A DNA stretch of 13,881 bases from Chitinophagaceae bacterium UBA3961 (GTDB lineage Bacteria; Bacteroidota; Bacteroidia; Chitinophagales; Chitinophagaceae): assembly GCA_002385265.1 (NCBI GenBank), contig DGDD01000215.1, positions 1 through 13,881 of the forward strand, written 5' to 3'. Position 1 is the first letter of the stretch. The number at the start of each line of letters is the position of its first letter. Under the pieces are notes generated by a model. The model made no database searches. It had not been told where the DNA came from and was given only the letters and a program-made list of their open reading frames with translations. Shown here in pieces: positions 2,792 through 13,839 of this stretch. The translations under genes were made by a program, and so were the position numbers.

Positions 2792-2839
2792 CTAATCTGT
2801 GTTAATCCGTTTTAATTTGTGGGAATCGGTGGTCAAAAA
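2792..2839 (+). repeat. Four-unit AATCTGTG-type element, copy 1
   Basis: Four degenerate decamers in register: TAATCTGTGT, TAATCCGTTT, TAATTTGTGG, GAATCGGTGG, followed by TCAAAAA. A second copy with the same beginning and the same GTGGTCAAAAA end lies at 10802-10849. It is intergenic, on the same strand as the patatin gene it follows. There is no coding potential. Confidence 0.8.
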
Positions 2840-2867
2840 TAACGGTGAAATATTGAAAGACTCCTAG

Positions 2868-2910
2868 CGCTGCGTTGCCGCTGCGATCGCTGCGCCGCTG
2901 CGGTAAAAAA
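2868..2910 (+). repeat. Four-unit CGCTGCG element, copy 1
   Basis: Four exact copies of CGCTGCG start at 2868, 2879, 2888 and 2896, spaced 11, 9 and 8 bases, and the last runs into GTAAAAAA. It is very GC-rich against an AT-rich surrounding. The reverse-strand element at 4582-4622 has the same word and identical spacing. Confidence 0.85.
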
Positions 2911-2998: not shown

Positions 2999-3032
2999 AA
3001 TTCTTAATTCTTAACTCTTAATTCTTAATTAA
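2999..3032 (-). repeat. Period-7 AATTCTT repeat overlapping the lipid kinase 3' end
   Basis: On the plus strand AATTCTT occurs at 2999, 3006 and 3020, with AACTCTT at 3013, then AATTAA. The stop codon of the minus-strand lipid kinase (3027-3025) and its last sense codon lie within the repeat. The remaining bases between the patatin and kinase genes (2758-2791, 2840-2867 and 2911-2998) show only a 6-base inverted repeat TAGAGT/ACTCTA (2911-2916, 2935-2940). Confidence 0.75.
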
Positions 3033-3936
3033 CCCCCGCTCTAGGTCGTATTAGTTTGAAAAAATTCGGAAGAATTTTGATTTCAAATCTACTCTCGGTT
3101 TCGGAAGGCTCACCATCAATATGCAAAGGTGCTTTACTGGGGTTCTCAATAGTGAGTTGGTCCGTTTGAAAATAGATGATGGATTGTTGCAAAGAGTTCT
3201 CTGCTGTTTTTACTTTCCCGAGCAATACCTGTTTCACTACATTTAGTAATAAAAGCGGTTTAGCAGTTTTCTTCACTATTACAATATCCAATAACCCGTC
3301 GTTTAATAAAGCTTCCGGTGCAATGGTGAAGCTATTTCCGAATTGATTACTATTGGCTACACTGATGAAGAATGCTTCTGTATCGAAACGCAAACCATTA
3401 GCGCTGATCGTAAAGGGGTAAAAGGGAGCAGTAAAGAAGTGACGTGTGGTGAGTCGTGCATAGGTTTTCAATCCCCTGCTTTCTTGTTCTGCAAATTCAT
3501 GGGCCACTCCGGCATCAAAACCTAGGCCAGCCAACATGCATGCAAAACGATTGTTGATCATGAATCCATCAGTTAAAGCCGGCTTGCCGGTGAATAGAAT
3601 CTCTAATGCTTTTTCGGGATTTTTAGGAATGTTGGCAGTAAGTGCAAGTCCGTTTCCCGATCCCATGGGAATGATTCCGAAAGGGATGTTCAAATGAGCG
3701 AGTGCATTTACTACTTGATTGACACTGCCATCGCCACCGCAGATCCCAATTTTGTTAAACTTCTCTGTTTTGATATAATCAACTAGATGATCGTAGTTGC
3801 CATCTTGGGTGGTTCCTTCAAAAGTAAAGTCGATGATTGCTGAACGGGTGATATTTTCAATTTTGTTTCTCAGCACCTTTTTAGATCTGGTACCGGAAAT
3901 TGGGTTCATTAAGTAAAGTATTTTATCCCGTTTCAT
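3025..3936 (-). CDS. Diacylglycerol kinase catalytic-domain lipid kinase (YegS/DgkB-like)
   Basis: A 303-residue soluble or membrane-associated kinase of the family that phosphorylates lipid hydroxyls (diacylglycerol, sphingosine or similar) with ATP. The ATG at 3936 is preferred over an in-frame TTG nine bases upstream, because MKRDKILYLMNPISG is the usual family beginning. Motifs from N to C: NPISGT (11-16), the nucleotide-binding GGDGS (67-71) with NQVVNAL following, GSGNGLA (92-98), GLGFDAGV (137-144), NDGLLDI (212-218) and HIDGEP (272-277) near the end. The length is normal for the family and all expected glycine-rich motifs are present, so it is likely active. It is convergent with the patatin gene and lies 45 bases downstream of the secreted-protein gene on the same strand, possibly cotranscribed with it. 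The lipid substrate cannot be read from sequence. Confidence 0.9.
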   Translation of the reverse strand: MKRDKILYLMNPISGTRSKKVLRNKIENITRSAIIDFTFEGTTQDGNYDHLVDYIKTEKFNKIGICGGDGSVNQVVNALAHLNIPFGIIPMGSGNGLALTANIPKNPEKALEILFTGKPALTDGFMINNRFACMLAGLGFDAGVAHEFAEQESRGLKTYARLTTRHFFTAPFYPFTISANGLRFDTEAFFISVANSNQFGNSFTIAPEALLNDGLLDIVIVKKTAKPLLLLNVVKQVLLGKVKTAENSLQQSIIYFQTDQLTIENPSKAPLHIDGEPSETESRFEIKILPNFFKLIRPRAGVN

Positions 3937-3981
3937 GTGCGTCAATATCGAGCACGAAGATACAGTAGTAATGCGATATAC

Positions 3982-4425
3982 TTAATCTTCCAATATCAAT
4001 ACACCCAAGACATTTCTTTTGATGCGTATGGCTTTTGCCATGGCGGGATCAGCAGGAGCGAGCCAAGCGCAGATGTTCAATTTTTTTCTGGTCCAAATTA
4101 TTTTGAGCAGGTCTTTATTGAATAGGAAGATCTGATCGGCACTATCTTTCTGAGCCGTTCCTTCTCCTTTTTCATCAAATAGTCCAATGCTTCTTACCCA
4201 ACCTTTGGGAACTTCATTGGCTTTGTTGTCGTCGAATTCGATTTTGAACAGGTTGTTGTTCGATAGATCGGCTTTTTTCACACGAATGACGTTGGCAACG
4301 GTATCGTCAACGGTAGATGATTTTATAACAGCTTTTTTGTTGAGAGTAATTTTCCAACTGCTCATTTGAGCGGATGCGGATAAAGAAATAGCCAATAAAG
4401 CGATGAATACGATTGCCTGTTTCAT
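3982..4425 (-). CDS. Small secreted protein of unknown function
   Basis: A 147-residue protein that I do not recognise. It starts with a clear signal peptide, MKQAIVFIALLAISLSASA, with a signal peptidase I site after residue 19 (ASA/Q), so the mature part (about 128 residues) should be periplasmic or exported. The mature part mixes charged and beta-prone segments, has no transmembrane helix and no sorting domain, and contains one cysteine (in LNICAWL). A short pattern KITLNKKAVI... followed by FKIEFDD and IIWTRKKLNICAWL suggests a small beta-sandwich, but this is a guess. The ATG at 4425 sets the signal peptide correctly. The upstream side is an island of repeats. The lipid kinase follows 45 bases downstream on the same strand, so the two may share a transcript. 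Confidence 0.75.
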   Translation of the reverse strand: MKQAIVFIALLAISLSASAQMSSWKITLNKKAVIKSSTVDDTVANVIRVKKADLSNNNLFKIEFDDNKANEVPKGWVRSIGLFDEKGEGTAQKDSADQIFLFNKDLLKIIWTRKKLNICAWLAPADPAMAKAIRIKRNVLGVLILED

Positions 4426-4461
4426 GGTGACAAGATAGTGAATTTTATAATAAATTTTGGT

Positions 4462-4501
4462 TCACCGCAGTGCTCGCAAAGTCCGCTAAGTAGTCGCAAA
4501 G
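4462..4501 (-). repeat. Four-unit CTTTGCG element
   Basis: Read on the minus strand: CTTTGCG (4501-4495), CTTAGCG (4490-4484), CTTTGCG (4481-4475) and CACTGCG (4472-4466), then GTGAACC. Start spacing is 11, 9 and 9. It has the same layout as the CGCTGCG elements with a different word, and the same GCGGTGAA ending. It lies about 40 bases upstream of the start of the secreted-protein gene. Confidence 0.8.
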
Positions 4502-4504
4502 ACC

Positions 4505-4580
4505 CTCGTTCTTGTATTCCACCTGTTCTTCCCTCTCTTCTTTCTCAATATTTCCTTTCTCCAGTCCTCTCCTTATTGTT
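4505..4580 (+). repeat. Pyrimidine-rich tract (left half of the 352-base gap)
   Basis: Mostly C and T on the plus strand, with recurring TTCTTCC, TTTCTCC and CCTCTCC words and occasional purines. It lies between the CTTTGCG and CGCTGCG elements. Short ORFs running through it have repeat-derived, biased composition and are not genes. Confidence 0.6.
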
Positions 4581-4581
4581 T

Positions 4582-4622
4582 TTTCACCGCAGCGGCGCGG
4601 CGTGCGCAGCGATTGCGCAGCG
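4582..4622 (-). repeat. Four-unit CGCTGCG element, copy 2 (inverted orientation)
   Basis: Read on the minus strand: CGCTGCG (4622-4616), CGCTGCG (4611-4605), CGCCGCG (4602-4596) and CGCTGCG (4594-4588), followed by GTGAAAAAA. Spacing is 11, 9 and 8, identical to the plus-strand copy at 2868-2910, while the spacer bases differ (CAAT for TTGC, CA for AT). Confidence 0.85.
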
Positions 4623-4650
4623 CTGGCAGTCACCCTGTATTTCATTGATC

Positions 4651-4681
4651 AGGATTTTCAGGATTAAAGGATTGACAGGAT
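4651..4681 (-). repeat. Four-unit ATCCT element
   Basis: AGGAT occurs on the plus strand at 4651, 4660, 4668 and 4677, spaced 9, 8 and 9. On the minus strand this reads as a run of ATCCTG/ATCCTT words separated by A/T-rich triplets. It is intergenic, downstream of fabH and in the same orientation as it. Confidence 0.8.
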
Positions 4682-4698: not shown

Positions 4699-4779
4699 TT
4701 CCTCCTGTTCCTCTTCCTGTTCTTTCTCTGTCTTTCCTCGTTTCCTCGTCTCCTCTCATCCTCGTTCCTCCCTCTTCTC
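4699..4779 (-). repeat. Purine tract (GAGGAA words) at the 3' end of fabH
   Basis: About 80 bases that are almost purely pyrimidine on the plus strand (purine on the transcript of fabH). They are made of repeated TTCCTC/TTTCCTCG words with G about every 8-12 bases. The tract abuts and includes part of the fabH stop codon (4780-4778). It creates a spurious Arg/Glu-rich ORF on the minus strand. Confidence 0.75.
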
Positions 4780-5827
4780 ACCATTTCATCAAACAACTCG
4801 CCCAGGTAAACCCGCTTCCAAACGCTGCTAAACAAACGAGGTCTCCTTTCTTTATTTTTCCTGCTTCCCAAGCTTCGCATAAGGCTATGGGTACGGAAGC
4901 GGCTGTTGTATTGCCGTATTTGTGAATGTTATTGAATACTTGGTCGTCGCGCAATCCAAGTTTTTGCTGAACAAACTGGGCGATTCTTAAGTTGGCTTGG
5001 TGGGGAATCAACACCGAAATATCGGAGGGCTGATAGCCATTGGCTTGCAGTGCTTCTACAATGACTTCCGGAAATTTAACTACCGCTTTTTTGAATACCG
5101 AGGGGCCGTCCATAAAAGGGAAGTTCTGTGCATTGTCGATCATGTTGTGACTCATGAACATTTGTCCAATAGGCGCTTCGTCAAAATTAGCCAACGGCTC
5201 TTTGGTCCAATGGTTGGCGTGCGTGCCGGGATTGTACATTGCTAATATCTCTGCACTTTCTCCATCGCTGTGTAAATGGGTGCTTAAGATCGCAGATTGA
5301 TCATCGGAAGAGGGCTGCAAAACTACCGCGCCGGCACCGTCTCCGAAAATCACACTAACATTTCTGCCTCGAGTACTAAAATCGAGTCCGAAAGAATGTT
5401 TCTCACTTCCAATTACCAATATGTTTTTGTACATGCCGGTTTTTATGAATTGATCGGCTACACTTAAGGCATATACGAAACCGCTGCATTGATTTCGAAT
5501 GTCTAAAGCTCCAATTTCTTTCATCTTCATGGCTCTTTGTACCAATACGCCACAGCCTGGGAAATAATAGTCGGGCGAGAGTGTTGCAAATACAATGAAG
5601 TCGATATCCTGAGGAGTAATGCCTGCTCTTTCGATGGCGATTTTAGAAGCTTCTACTGCCATTGTGGTGGTAGTTTCTTCTGTGCGATGGGCATAACGGC
5701 GTTCTTTGATGCCGGTTCTTTCTTGGATCCATTCGTCGCTGGTATCCATATACTTGGTAAGGTCCTGATTGGTAACTACATTATTCGGCACATACATGCC
5801 TATTCCTGCAATTTTTGAACTGAACAT
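4778..5827 (-). CDS. fabH: Beta-ketoacyl-ACP synthase III (FabH-type)
   Basis: A 349-residue thiolase-fold condensing enzyme. The family joins an acyl-CoA primer to malonyl-ACP at the first step of fatty acid synthesis or of a related pathway. The N-terminus SSKIAGIGMYVPNNVVTN and the segment TSDEWIQERTGIKERR are typical. The catalytic triad is complete: Cys114 in NQCSGF, His276 in IPHQANLRI and Asn306 in KYGNTTAAS. Compared with the roughly 317-residue enteric FabH, the distance from Cys to His is about 30 residues longer; the extra part is around MYNPGTHANHWTKEPLANFDEAPIGQMF. I chose ATG at 5827 over a TTG six bases upstream. It is the last gene of a likely three-gene unit, 50 bases after the VOC gene. 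Bacteroidota often carry several FabH paralogues, so this copy may serve a specialised lipid or pigment rather than bulk synthesis. Confidence 0.92.
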   Translation of the reverse strand: MFSSKIAGIGMYVPNNVVTNQDLTKYMDTSDEWIQERTGIKERRYAHRTEETTTTMAVEASKIAIERAGITPQDIDFIVFATLSPDYYFPGCGVLVQRAMKMKEIGALDIRNQCSGFVYALSVADQFIKTGMYKNILVIGSEKHSFGLDFSTRGRNVSVIFGDGAGAVVLQPSSDDQSAILSTHLHSDGESAEILAMYNPGTHANHWTKEPLANFDEAPIGQMFMSHNMIDNAQNFPFMDGPSVFKKAVVKFPEVIVEALQANGYQPSDISVLIPHQANLRIAQFVQQKLGLRDDQVFNNIHKYGNTTAASVPIALCEAWEAGKIKKGDLVCLAAFGSGFTWASCLMKW

Positions 5828-5877
5828 GTGCAAGCTGTTTAATCGTTATAGTGTAACAGTAGTAAAGCTAAAATGTT

Positions 5878-10801: not shown

Positions 10802-10849
10802 CTAATCTGTGTAAATCTGTCTTAATCTGCGTATTCTGTGGTCAAAAAA
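10802..10849 (+). repeat. Four-unit AATCTGTG-type element, copy 2
   Basis: Units after the leading C: TAATCTGTGT, AAATCTGTCT, TAATCTGCGT, ATTCTGTGG, then TCAAAAAA. It aligns with the element at 2792-2839 across its length with one single-base gap, and both begin with CTAATCTGTGT and end with GTGGTCAAAAA. It lies between the tRNA and the acyl-CoA ligase, antisense to the latter's transcript. Confidence 0.8.
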
Positions 10850-12819: not shown

Positions 12820-13839
12820 TTACATGCGGGTTTGATAGTACTGCCCCTGCGGTACTTTAAATAGCCTGTTTTGCTGGAGGCGAAGAAATTCTTTGTTTTC
12901 CTCTTCGTGGGTATTGGTCCACATTTGATAAGAAGGTAAGCTGGCACTGGCACCTAACAACCATTGATTATAGGCTTCAAAATAGCCCATTTTCAAGAGC
13001 TGCTGGTGGTGGTCAAACAATCGAAAAGCAAAACGGGTATTATTGCCGTTTGCATACCAATCGAGAATGAATCGTGTTCTCAATTTGGTAATGCTTTCCG
13101 GAGTAATACCATTGGTAACGAGACCACCGTGCTTTTTATATAAATCGAGGCAAGTGGATACAAAGCTGTTCTTTGTGTCCTGACCTTTATAGAAATCATC
13201 GCCGGTATAAAGCTTTTTGTAGCCGTCGAGCAACATCTTTTTGATTTCGATGGTACGGTCGGAATAGCTTTCCATGTTCACGAAGATCTCACCATAAATA
13301 AGGCCCCAGAATTTATCGGCAGAGAAATAATAGTATTTGGCTGCATTGTAGTAGTTGCCGGCGTAATTAGGATCCATCTCAATTCCTTTCTCCCAGTTCT
13401 TAACTGCTTCGGTGAATTCTTTCTTCGTCCAAAGCATTTCGCCGTATTCATTGTACAACACACCACTAGCGGGGAATTTCTTGATTCCAGCTCTGTACAA
13501 GCGCTCGCATTCTTTGCGATCTTCCATGGCTTTGTAAATCAGCGCTGTAATTTGATAGCCTTGAACATCGATGTCTTTCCTTTCTGCTAGTGGCTTGGCT
13601 ACTTGAATGGCCGAAGCATAGTCCTTCTTGAGGTAATGACAAAAAGCGAGGTCCTTTAGAATTTCAAGATTGTCGGGGCTAATTTGGTTGGCGCGTGTGA
13701 GCACAATTACCGCATTCGAATAATCACCTTGACGCATAAAAGTACGCGCCGTTTCTTGCAGTTTGCGTGGATCGTTTTCCTGAGCCATGCTGCAGAAGGA
13801 TGCTAAAACGAATAATAAGAAGAGTAATTGTTGCTTCAT
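12820..13839 (-). CDS. Secreted tetratricopeptide-repeat protein
   Basis: A 339-residue protein with a signal peptide, MKQQLLFLLFVLASFCSMA, cleaved before Q20, so it is probably periplasmic. Residues ~25-185 form about four to five TPR units; recognisable ones are around FMRQGDYSNAVIVLTRANQISPDN, CHYLKKDYASAIQVAKPLAE, LYNEYGEMLWTKKEFTEAVKNW and the stretch up to PNYAGNYYNAAKYYY. TPRs form helical scaffolds for protein partners. The C-terminal ~150 residues (from about KFWGLIYGEIF) are helical and not TPR-like, and I do not recognise them. No catalytic motif is visible. The ATG at 13839 gives the correct signal peptide. It is upstream of the acyl-CoA ligase, with which a functional link is unproven. 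Confidence 0.85.
   Translation of the reverse strand: MKQQLLFLLFVLASFCSMAQENDPRKLQETARTFMRQGDYSNAVIVLTRANQISPDNLEILKDLAFCHYLKKDYASAIQVAKPLAERKDIDVQGYQITALIYKAMEDRKECERLYRAGIKKFPASGVLYNEYGEMLWTKKEFTEAVKNWEKGIEMDPNYAGNYYNAAKYYYFSADKFWGLIYGEIFVNMESYSDRTIEIKKMLLDGYKKLYTGDDFYKGQDTKNSFVSTCLDLYKKHGGLVTNGITPESITKLRTRFILDWYANGNNTRFAFRLFDHHQQLLKMGYFEAYNQWLLGASASLPSYQMWTNTHEEENKEFLRLQQNRLFKVPQGQYYQTRM

Follow-up and report, generated by a model that had tools for sequence, protein, structure and literature searches.

What are the short GC-rich arrays that stand between genes here, and how did two of them come to share the same internal geometry on opposite strands? The window, i.e., the whole stretch of 13,881 nt that was analyzed, carries CGCYGCG at 2868, 2879, 2888 and 2896 on the plus strand and at 4588, 4596, 4605 and 4616 on the minus strand. 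A preliminary description, made from the letters of the window, had reported four CGCTGCG words on the plus strand and a minus-strand copy with the same layout, one CGCCGCG unit, the same 11-9-8 spacing and a defined ending. A motif scan bore out both statements. The features discussed below are as follows.

2868..2904, plus strand: four-word element, CGCTGCG at 2868-2874, 2879-2885, 2888-2894 and 2896-2902, then GT (motif scan)
2905..2910, plus strand: A-run, the outer end of the first element and a family-wide trait (window sequence, copy alignment)
2845..2867, plus strand: inner flank GTGAAATATTGAAAGACTCCTAG, a drifted form of the GAAATACAGAGAGACTGCCAG flank found at many copies
4586..4622, minus strand: second four-word element, third word CGCCGCG (motif scan)
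4579..4585, minus strand: outer end of the second element, GAAAAAA on the minus strand
4623..4645, minus strand: inner flank of the second element, resembling 2845-2867
4461..4501, plus strand: TTCACCGCAG..CGCAAAG..CGCTAAG..CGCAAAG, which compared by eye with the arms of GxxExxY loci is a degenerate arm of left type from the wider family
2792..2838, plus strand: periodic module of the AATCTGTG type with GGTCAAAAA at its end, part of the same inserted stretch, with the start of a related copy at 10802

The window contains 11 CGCYGCG matches where 1.47 are expected, and none of 200 shuffles reached 11. Both elements follow the formula CGCYGCG-N4-CGCYGCG-N2-CGCYGCG-N-CGCYGCG-GT, i.e., 11-9-8 spacing, followed by an A-run, and they end in GTAAAAAA and GTGAAAAAA; the minus-strand copy has CGCCGCG as its third word. 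Their GGT ends face one another across 1,681 bases. The likeness reaches 23 bases inward of the first word, with 50 of 68 bases identical side by side, and the pair was also picked up as a 65 nt inverted match that is 77% complementary. The first element sits between convergent genes (536-2743 and 3025-3945) and the second between an ORF at 3982-4425 and a FabH-like gene at 4778-5833 (gene names near the elements, i.e., FabH-like, patatin-like and kinase, were read from translations). Neither copy is located in 23S rRNA, both being between protein genes, and an Rfam search of the window returned tRNA only. Two further arrays lie close by: a seven-base periodic ATTCTTA array at 3000-3029, in the same junction as the first element and of a kind common in the genome, and a CAGGATTTTCAGGATTAAAGGATTGACAGGAT periodic module at 4646-4681 that adjoins the second element, similar modules being found beside other copies.

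The window pair had been read as part of a dispersed element, either under constraint or copied as a unit, rather than as random low complexity. This dispersed-family reading is supported. A search of both strands of the window's own assembly (4,124,017 bp, 304 contigs), with at most three mismatches, returned 118 four-word matches (61 forward, 57 reverse), so the window pair is far from being the sole copies; the reversed pattern gave no match on either strand, and base composition predicts about 1e-12 exact matches. Copy statistics refer to 107 copies, at the same cut of three mismatches, in 839,701 bases, or roughly one fifth of the assembly, i.e., stretches picked around copies and on larger contigs. 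Eighty-three of these copies are exact, 22 have one mismatch, one has two and one has three. The copies are intergenic: although ORFs of at least 200 aa cover 71% of the examined sequence, 105 of the 107 copies lie outside such ORFs and two touch one. An ORF cut of 100 aa gave 26 overlaps among the 107; the 200 aa cut was preferred because shorter ORFs look spurious.

Constraint falls on the words and on their spacing. The mean pairwise difference among words is 0.018 without the C/T site (0.043 with it), whereas the N4 and N2 spacers reach 0.55, which is near saturation, and the single-base spacer 0.11. The inner flank is about as variable as the spacers across the 107 copies, and at the outer end A occupies the second to sixth base after GGT in 0.75-0.88 of them. 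Grouping intact CGCYGCG words that lie within 20 bases of one another, a scan outside which elements with a 25-60 base insert fall, gave 84 clusters with 11-9-8 spacing and 48 other clusters of at least two words. The latter are sub-sets or sums of the same grid (8, 9, 11, 17, 20), besides one 11-8 cluster, in which one whole unit plus its spacer is lost, and one cluster with an extra outer word. Not one of the 132 clusters of at least two intact words has a spacer of another length. Spacing is kept genome-wide and, barring hairpin-interrupted elements, clusters of intact words do not leave the 11-9-8 grid, as expected of an element under constraint.

We refer to one such word array as an "arm". 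None of 98 relatives (one of the same genus, 58 of the same family and 39 of the same order) carries a copy with at most three mismatches, the same-genus relative being 78% complete. In that same-genus genome, the four genes around the window elements stand in identical order with repeat-free junctions: the ends of the patatin-like gene and the kinase gene overlap, and the FabH-like gene is preceded by a gap of 99 bp. A portion of 129,757 bases from this relative contains three scattered generic arms and no pairs. These clean junctions agree with arms that were copied as units, and, at the level of sequence comparison, the element was amplified within this lineage. Most copies are single arms; among the 107, there are two outward inverted pairs within 1 kb, and six copies have a left-type arm within 100 nt on their inner side.

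Where arms are paired, they can enclose a gene, a link that the preliminary description had not seen. The window's genome has six matches to the GxxExxY family at five places, one of them a broken gene. The gene at C122:13353-13700 is enclosed by inverted elements, one on the minus strand at 13284 and one on the plus strand at 13823, which are separated by about 500 bp. The GxxExxY gene at C122:12386 has a palindrome of a different word on one side only. Those on C115 and C272 have no bracketing arms, and gene-less palindromes adjoin both; the broken copy on C211 has neither arms nor such a palindrome. In one relative from the same family (G011), the only three CTYTGCG-type matches flank a GxxExxY ORF on both sides, and this ORF matches PF13366 with an E-value of 4e-37.

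The bracketed gene, of about 125 codons, scores above the curated cut-off of the GxxExxY family (TIGR04256/PF13366) and has the PD-(D/E)XK residues; no DDE transposase was seen in the cassette. E28, D68, K80, Q92 and Y96 are kept in 63/63 sequences and E78 in 62/63, in an alignment that covers 62 of 80 loci, 18 being omitted where the match overran the stop. An AlphaFold (AF2) model of the protein has a pLDDT of 96. The top Foldseek matches are SSO0001 (4ic1, E 1.8e-3), which we take to be a Cas4-like nuclease, and lambda-exonuclease folds, none of them at E ≤0.001, and a sequence search of solved structures gave no meaningful match. Residue conservation, the confident fold model and the nuclease folds among the structural matches together suggest that GxxExxY is likely an active PD-(D/E)XK nuclease.

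Bracketing of this gene by inverted arms extends across phyla. Named genomes were scanned for GxxExxY loci, and of at least 561 we kept the best 80, of which 77 are testable; the 80 span Bacteroidota, Ignavibacteria, Planctomycetota, Acidobacteriota, Cyanobacteriota, Chloroflexota, Pseudomonadota, archaea and others. Two tests were used: (i) an inverted-flank test, which compares the left flank with the reverse complement of the right flank, assumes no word and counts scores of at least 15; and (ii) a strand-specific paired-word test, in which C[AG]CN[AG][AC]G words are taken in pairs. Control positions in the flank and word tests, here and for the S23 genes described below, are random and mostly coding rather than small-gene flanks. 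An inverted flank match was found at 43 of 77 GxxExxY loci vs 11 of 1,609 control positions; a clear match is absent at 34 of the 77. Of the three archaeal loci that we noticed (L168, L173 and L202), none passed this test, and two carry gene-less palindromes. Paired words in the expected orientation were found on the left at 57, on the right at 49 and on both sides at 41 of the 77 loci; the corresponding numbers for the opposite orientation are 8, 18 and 6, and for 1,818 control positions 1.3%, 1.1% and 0.

The word was picked after the flanks of 40 loci and the best stretch of all 77 were in view. A subset of 39 loci, partly seen before the word was chosen, has paired words on the left at 31 and on the right at 29, vs 5 and 9 in the opposite orientation. 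Eight further loci, one on a viral contig and seven on plasmids, were fetched after word and threshold were fixed. Five of the eight have an inverted match of at least 15, and paired words occur on the left at two, on the right at four and on both sides at two, one of the eight having them in the opposite orientation too. Inverted bracketing holds in these later loci, with the exact word looser than in the first set. As for viral contigs, one GxxExxY relative (L303) was confirmed among 346 pattern matches, and inverted arms enclose this one as well.

The association is also seen at the level of whole genomes. Among 198 genomes of the phylum, GxxExxY is found in 99 and three-word arms in 31; the gene is present in 28 of the 31 arm-bearing genomes vs 71 of the 167 without arms (Fisher p 8e-7, an optimistic value because the genomes are related). 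In three genomes (G185, G216 and G141), arm pairs enclose GxxExxY genes.

A recurrent location is the junction between the end of a mutA-like gene and the start of mutB in Bacteroidales, which hosts six of the 80 loci (L157, L158, L159, L169, L177 and L182), with differing arms. L270 and L271 (MutB identity 92% and 90%) have short clean junctions where the Bacteroidaceae locus L157 has the gene plus arms; these clean junctions show solely that arms and gene can be jointly absent. The GxxExxY motif was found at none of the mutA-mutB sites of 30 genomes examined out of 281 that matched, and two sites without the gene (L273 and L275) have an arm pair, facing inward.

The two arms of a locus match each other in word and spacing. 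Both arms have the same second word base at 38 of the 41 two-armed loci (20.6 expected) and the same fifth base at 37 (21.2 expected). Spacing is equal in 34 of 41, vs a shuffled mean of 12.3, with none of 5,000 shuffles as high. At the equal-spacing loci, word letters are 0.90 identical within a locus vs 77% across loci, and spacer letters 0.51 vs 0.43. The arms of GxxExxY loci mirror those of the window, i.e., fixed words, fixed spacing and free spacers. Similarly, the spacing of three-word arms in 18 other genomes of the phylum agrees at 0.83 within a genome vs 0.37 when shuffled (138 listed places, including three tandem matches in G132 that overlap).

The word does not follow the protein. 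Mapped on the GxxExxY tree, which is poorly resolved, it requires 15 changes vs a shuffled mean of 13, i.e., it does not cluster (38 of the 41 two-armed loci had one label), and therefore protein lineage does not dictate the word. The word of the gene's arms equals that of distant arms of the same locus in 10 of 13 cases vs 6.6 expected (416 of 5,000 shuffles as high).

Arms also pair without a gene. Away from the gene at the 80 loci, neighboring arm pairs no more than 120 bases apart face outward in 21 cases and inward in four, one of the outward pairs (L188) looking like a coding coincidence; in 840 kb of the window's genome the numbers are 49 and 5, mostly with words other than CGCTGCG. Outside the arms, no clear or consistent target-site duplication was found. 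The longest direct match there has a mean of 5.27 vs 4.47 shuffled (0/300 as high), or 4.83 without L225. At L225, around 9478 and 9984, a 23-base direct repeat stands outside both arms and leads into another left arm; elements can therefore follow one another in tandem, joined by a common linker.

We give an even chance to the reading in which the window elements are solo arms of a mobile, palindromic repeat, with GxxExxY in its gene-bearing form and with the words as recognition sites. The complete form would consist of an arm, a loop and an inverted arm, and would be mostly non-coding. The loop would hold GxxExxY (TIGR04256/PF13366), a putative small PD-(D/E)XK nuclease, in some copies and be short and gene-less in others. 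Each arm would have two to five CRCNRMG heptamer words (CKYNGYG on the reverse strand) at a genome-typical spacing, 11-9-8 here, and an outward end of GGT, plus the A-run in this genome. A protein may read the words at fixed phase, the simplest candidates being the GxxExxY nuclease and a partner of it; spacers would be free to drift because only spacer length would be read. Recognition would lead to the arms being cut and copied into new intergenic sites, with the gene-bearing form as the source and the arms moving as units. That most copies are single arms counts against a simple transposon, since end-to-end DNA transposition does not readily yield single arms; the lack of a clear target duplication and the distribution of the word off the nuclease tree both count against it as well. 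Since the word ignores the nuclease tree, the data also allow a structure-reading nuclease that homes into resident palindromes.

A second gene family is often bracketed in a similar way. The best S23 (TIGR02436) loci of 30 of 58 genomes with a match (L067 and L241-L269) have an inverted flank match of at least 15 in 13 of 30 cases vs 0 of 633 control positions, and many of these matches are arrays with a period of about seven. In intervening sequences (IVS) of 23S rRNA, inverted repeats form a stem with an S23 ORF in the loop (PMC4990558). S23 bracketing therefore links our finding to intervening sequences, which likewise have a small gene in an inverted-repeat loop. By contrast with IVS as presented there, the elements described here are intergenic rather than in rRNA and their periodic words vary by element, and GxxExxY and S23 match different families. 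More tentatively than for the window elements themselves, and with the balance tipping against it, we propose a mobile class set by its architecture: a small gene (GxxExxY or four-helix-bundle S23) between inverted word arrays, with word and spacing private to an element or genome, mostly arm-matched and not set by protein lineage, and with single arms that can be amplified to more than 100 copies in a lineage. If this is true, matched words and spacing with drifting spacers would amount to a self-specified recognition code. If bracketing means mobility, GxxExxY, a very common gene, would gain a role as the nuclease of an element that is widespread, and some of the phylum's periodic intergenic DNA would be explained.

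Could the arms instead be an array of binding sites for a host protein, such as a regulator or a nucleoid protein, selected site by site, with GxxExxY merely favoring such regions? Constrained words, free spacers and a kept phase are the usual signature of multiple sites. Gene context can be read both ways. Of the 61 copies flanked on both sides by ORFs of at least 100 aa, 25 have convergent, 29 tandem and 7 divergent neighbors, vs 69, 147 and 54 among all gaps of at least 100 bases; copies are under-represented between divergent genes, where promoters lie. Moreover, the element is found in 0 of 98 relatives, and a host regulon would not be expected to bracket one gene family across phyla in an oriented, matched way. 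We consider this explanation unlikely.

Comparable in standing, and likewise improbable, is an RNA stem like that of 23S rRNA IVS, in which the arms of a transcript would pair with each other and set the loop gene apart, perhaps with cutting by RNase III. In its favor are the inverted arms at S23 loci, as in IVS (PMC4990558), and the match of word and spacing between arms. However, a stem would favor pairing of the spacers too, and spacer identity between arms is hardly above that across loci (0.51 vs 0.43). Folding argues in the same direction: solo arms as DNA have z-scores of -0.84 and 0.38 and a 66-nt hybrid palindrome -1.21, not clearly beyond shuffles, and RNA folding gives 0.51 and -0.03, with -1.74 for one spacer variant.

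Less probable still is a REP-like single-strand element moved by a Y1 (RAYT) transposase. The genome does have three Y1_Tnp genes, and solo copies would suit single-strand transfer, but the fetched flanks of these genes (up to 1.5 kb) contain neither a paired-word arm nor CGCYGCG, and the arm is no better a hairpin than its shuffles (DNA z-scores as above, -0.84 and 0.38). Other hairpin-like repeats (CCCCTTCAGGGG-like) rather than the four-word element are found near the Y1 transposase genes (L300, L301 and L302). A passive satellite, with words multiplied by slippage, scattered by recombination and owing their geometry to recent descent alone, would fit the many other 7-8 base periodic modules in the gaps of this genome but is already disfavored and has little chance of being correct, since spacers are near saturation without length change, edges are sharp, and the arms of unrelated elements share geometry, also within other genomes (0.83 vs 0.37 shuffled).

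How, then, do the presumed arms of a palindromic mobile repeat compare with known systems? MITEs are short, non-coding, intergenic and present in high copy number, with gene-less palindromes beside a gene-bearing form. The enzyme of a MITE is supplied in trans by a related autonomous element, for which the GxxExxY gene between like arms at C122 would be a candidate counterpart. The elements described here are likewise short, non-coding, intergenic and numerous, with gene-less palindromes alongside a gene-bearing form, but their copies are mostly single arms rather than units with terminal inverted repeats on each copy, their ends are heptamer-word arrays at fixed spacing with no clear target-site duplication, and their gene would encode a PD-(D/E)XK nuclease rather than a known transposase. 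Tn7-type ends are arrays of transposase sites, and TnsA is a PD-(D/E)XK nuclease; several recognition sites per end (putative here) and a PD-(D/E)XK enzyme are shared features, whereas the present cassette has 7-base words and a gene of about 125 codons, with no DDE transposase seen. REP/BIME sequences with RAYT are dispersed intergenic repeats, as are the four-word elements, which differ in having no RAYT linkage and no stable single-arm hairpin. STRR repeats of cyanobacteria consist of head-to-tail heptamers without spacers. Such a spacer-free layout, of the STRR and TAACTGA type, was not found here, where 84 plus 1 clusters of four intact words have 11-9-8 spacing. Sets of TAACTGA heptamers are found in Beggiatoaceae, cyanobacteria and Bacteroidetes, most BOGUAY sets being just upstream of start codons, according to the accessible part of PMC4679880. 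They resemble the present arms as intergenic direct repeats of heptamers, Bacteroidetes included, but no fixed 11-9-8 spacing, inverted partner arm or nuclease gene is described in that part of the report (PMC4679880). The bracketing of GxxExxY by arms was not found described among the listed titles of the open-access literature that was searched, where the GxxExxY name is rare and mentioned in passing. What may be new is the bracketing of a nuclease gene by word arrays; parts of the architecture resemble known palindromic repeats, IVS and heptamer repeats.

Two minor observations concern repeats inside or around the four-word elements. A REP-like hairpin of the TTGTCCTGAGC...GTCGAAGGA type is inserted in the four-word element, and in five cases it stands precisely between words 2 and 3. 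The hairpin string has nine matches in 840 kb at eight places, and seven of these places are within four-word elements, the eighth, on C183, being beside degenerate words (hairpin sites: C80:3682, C94:16143, C99:13185, C221:15970, C260:3067, C211:9283, C226:2549, C21 and C183). Finally, at C99:2666-2838, an inverted four-word pair with a 100-bp gene-less loop is itself enclosed by inverted AACTAAA-type arrays, i.e., the brackets are nested.
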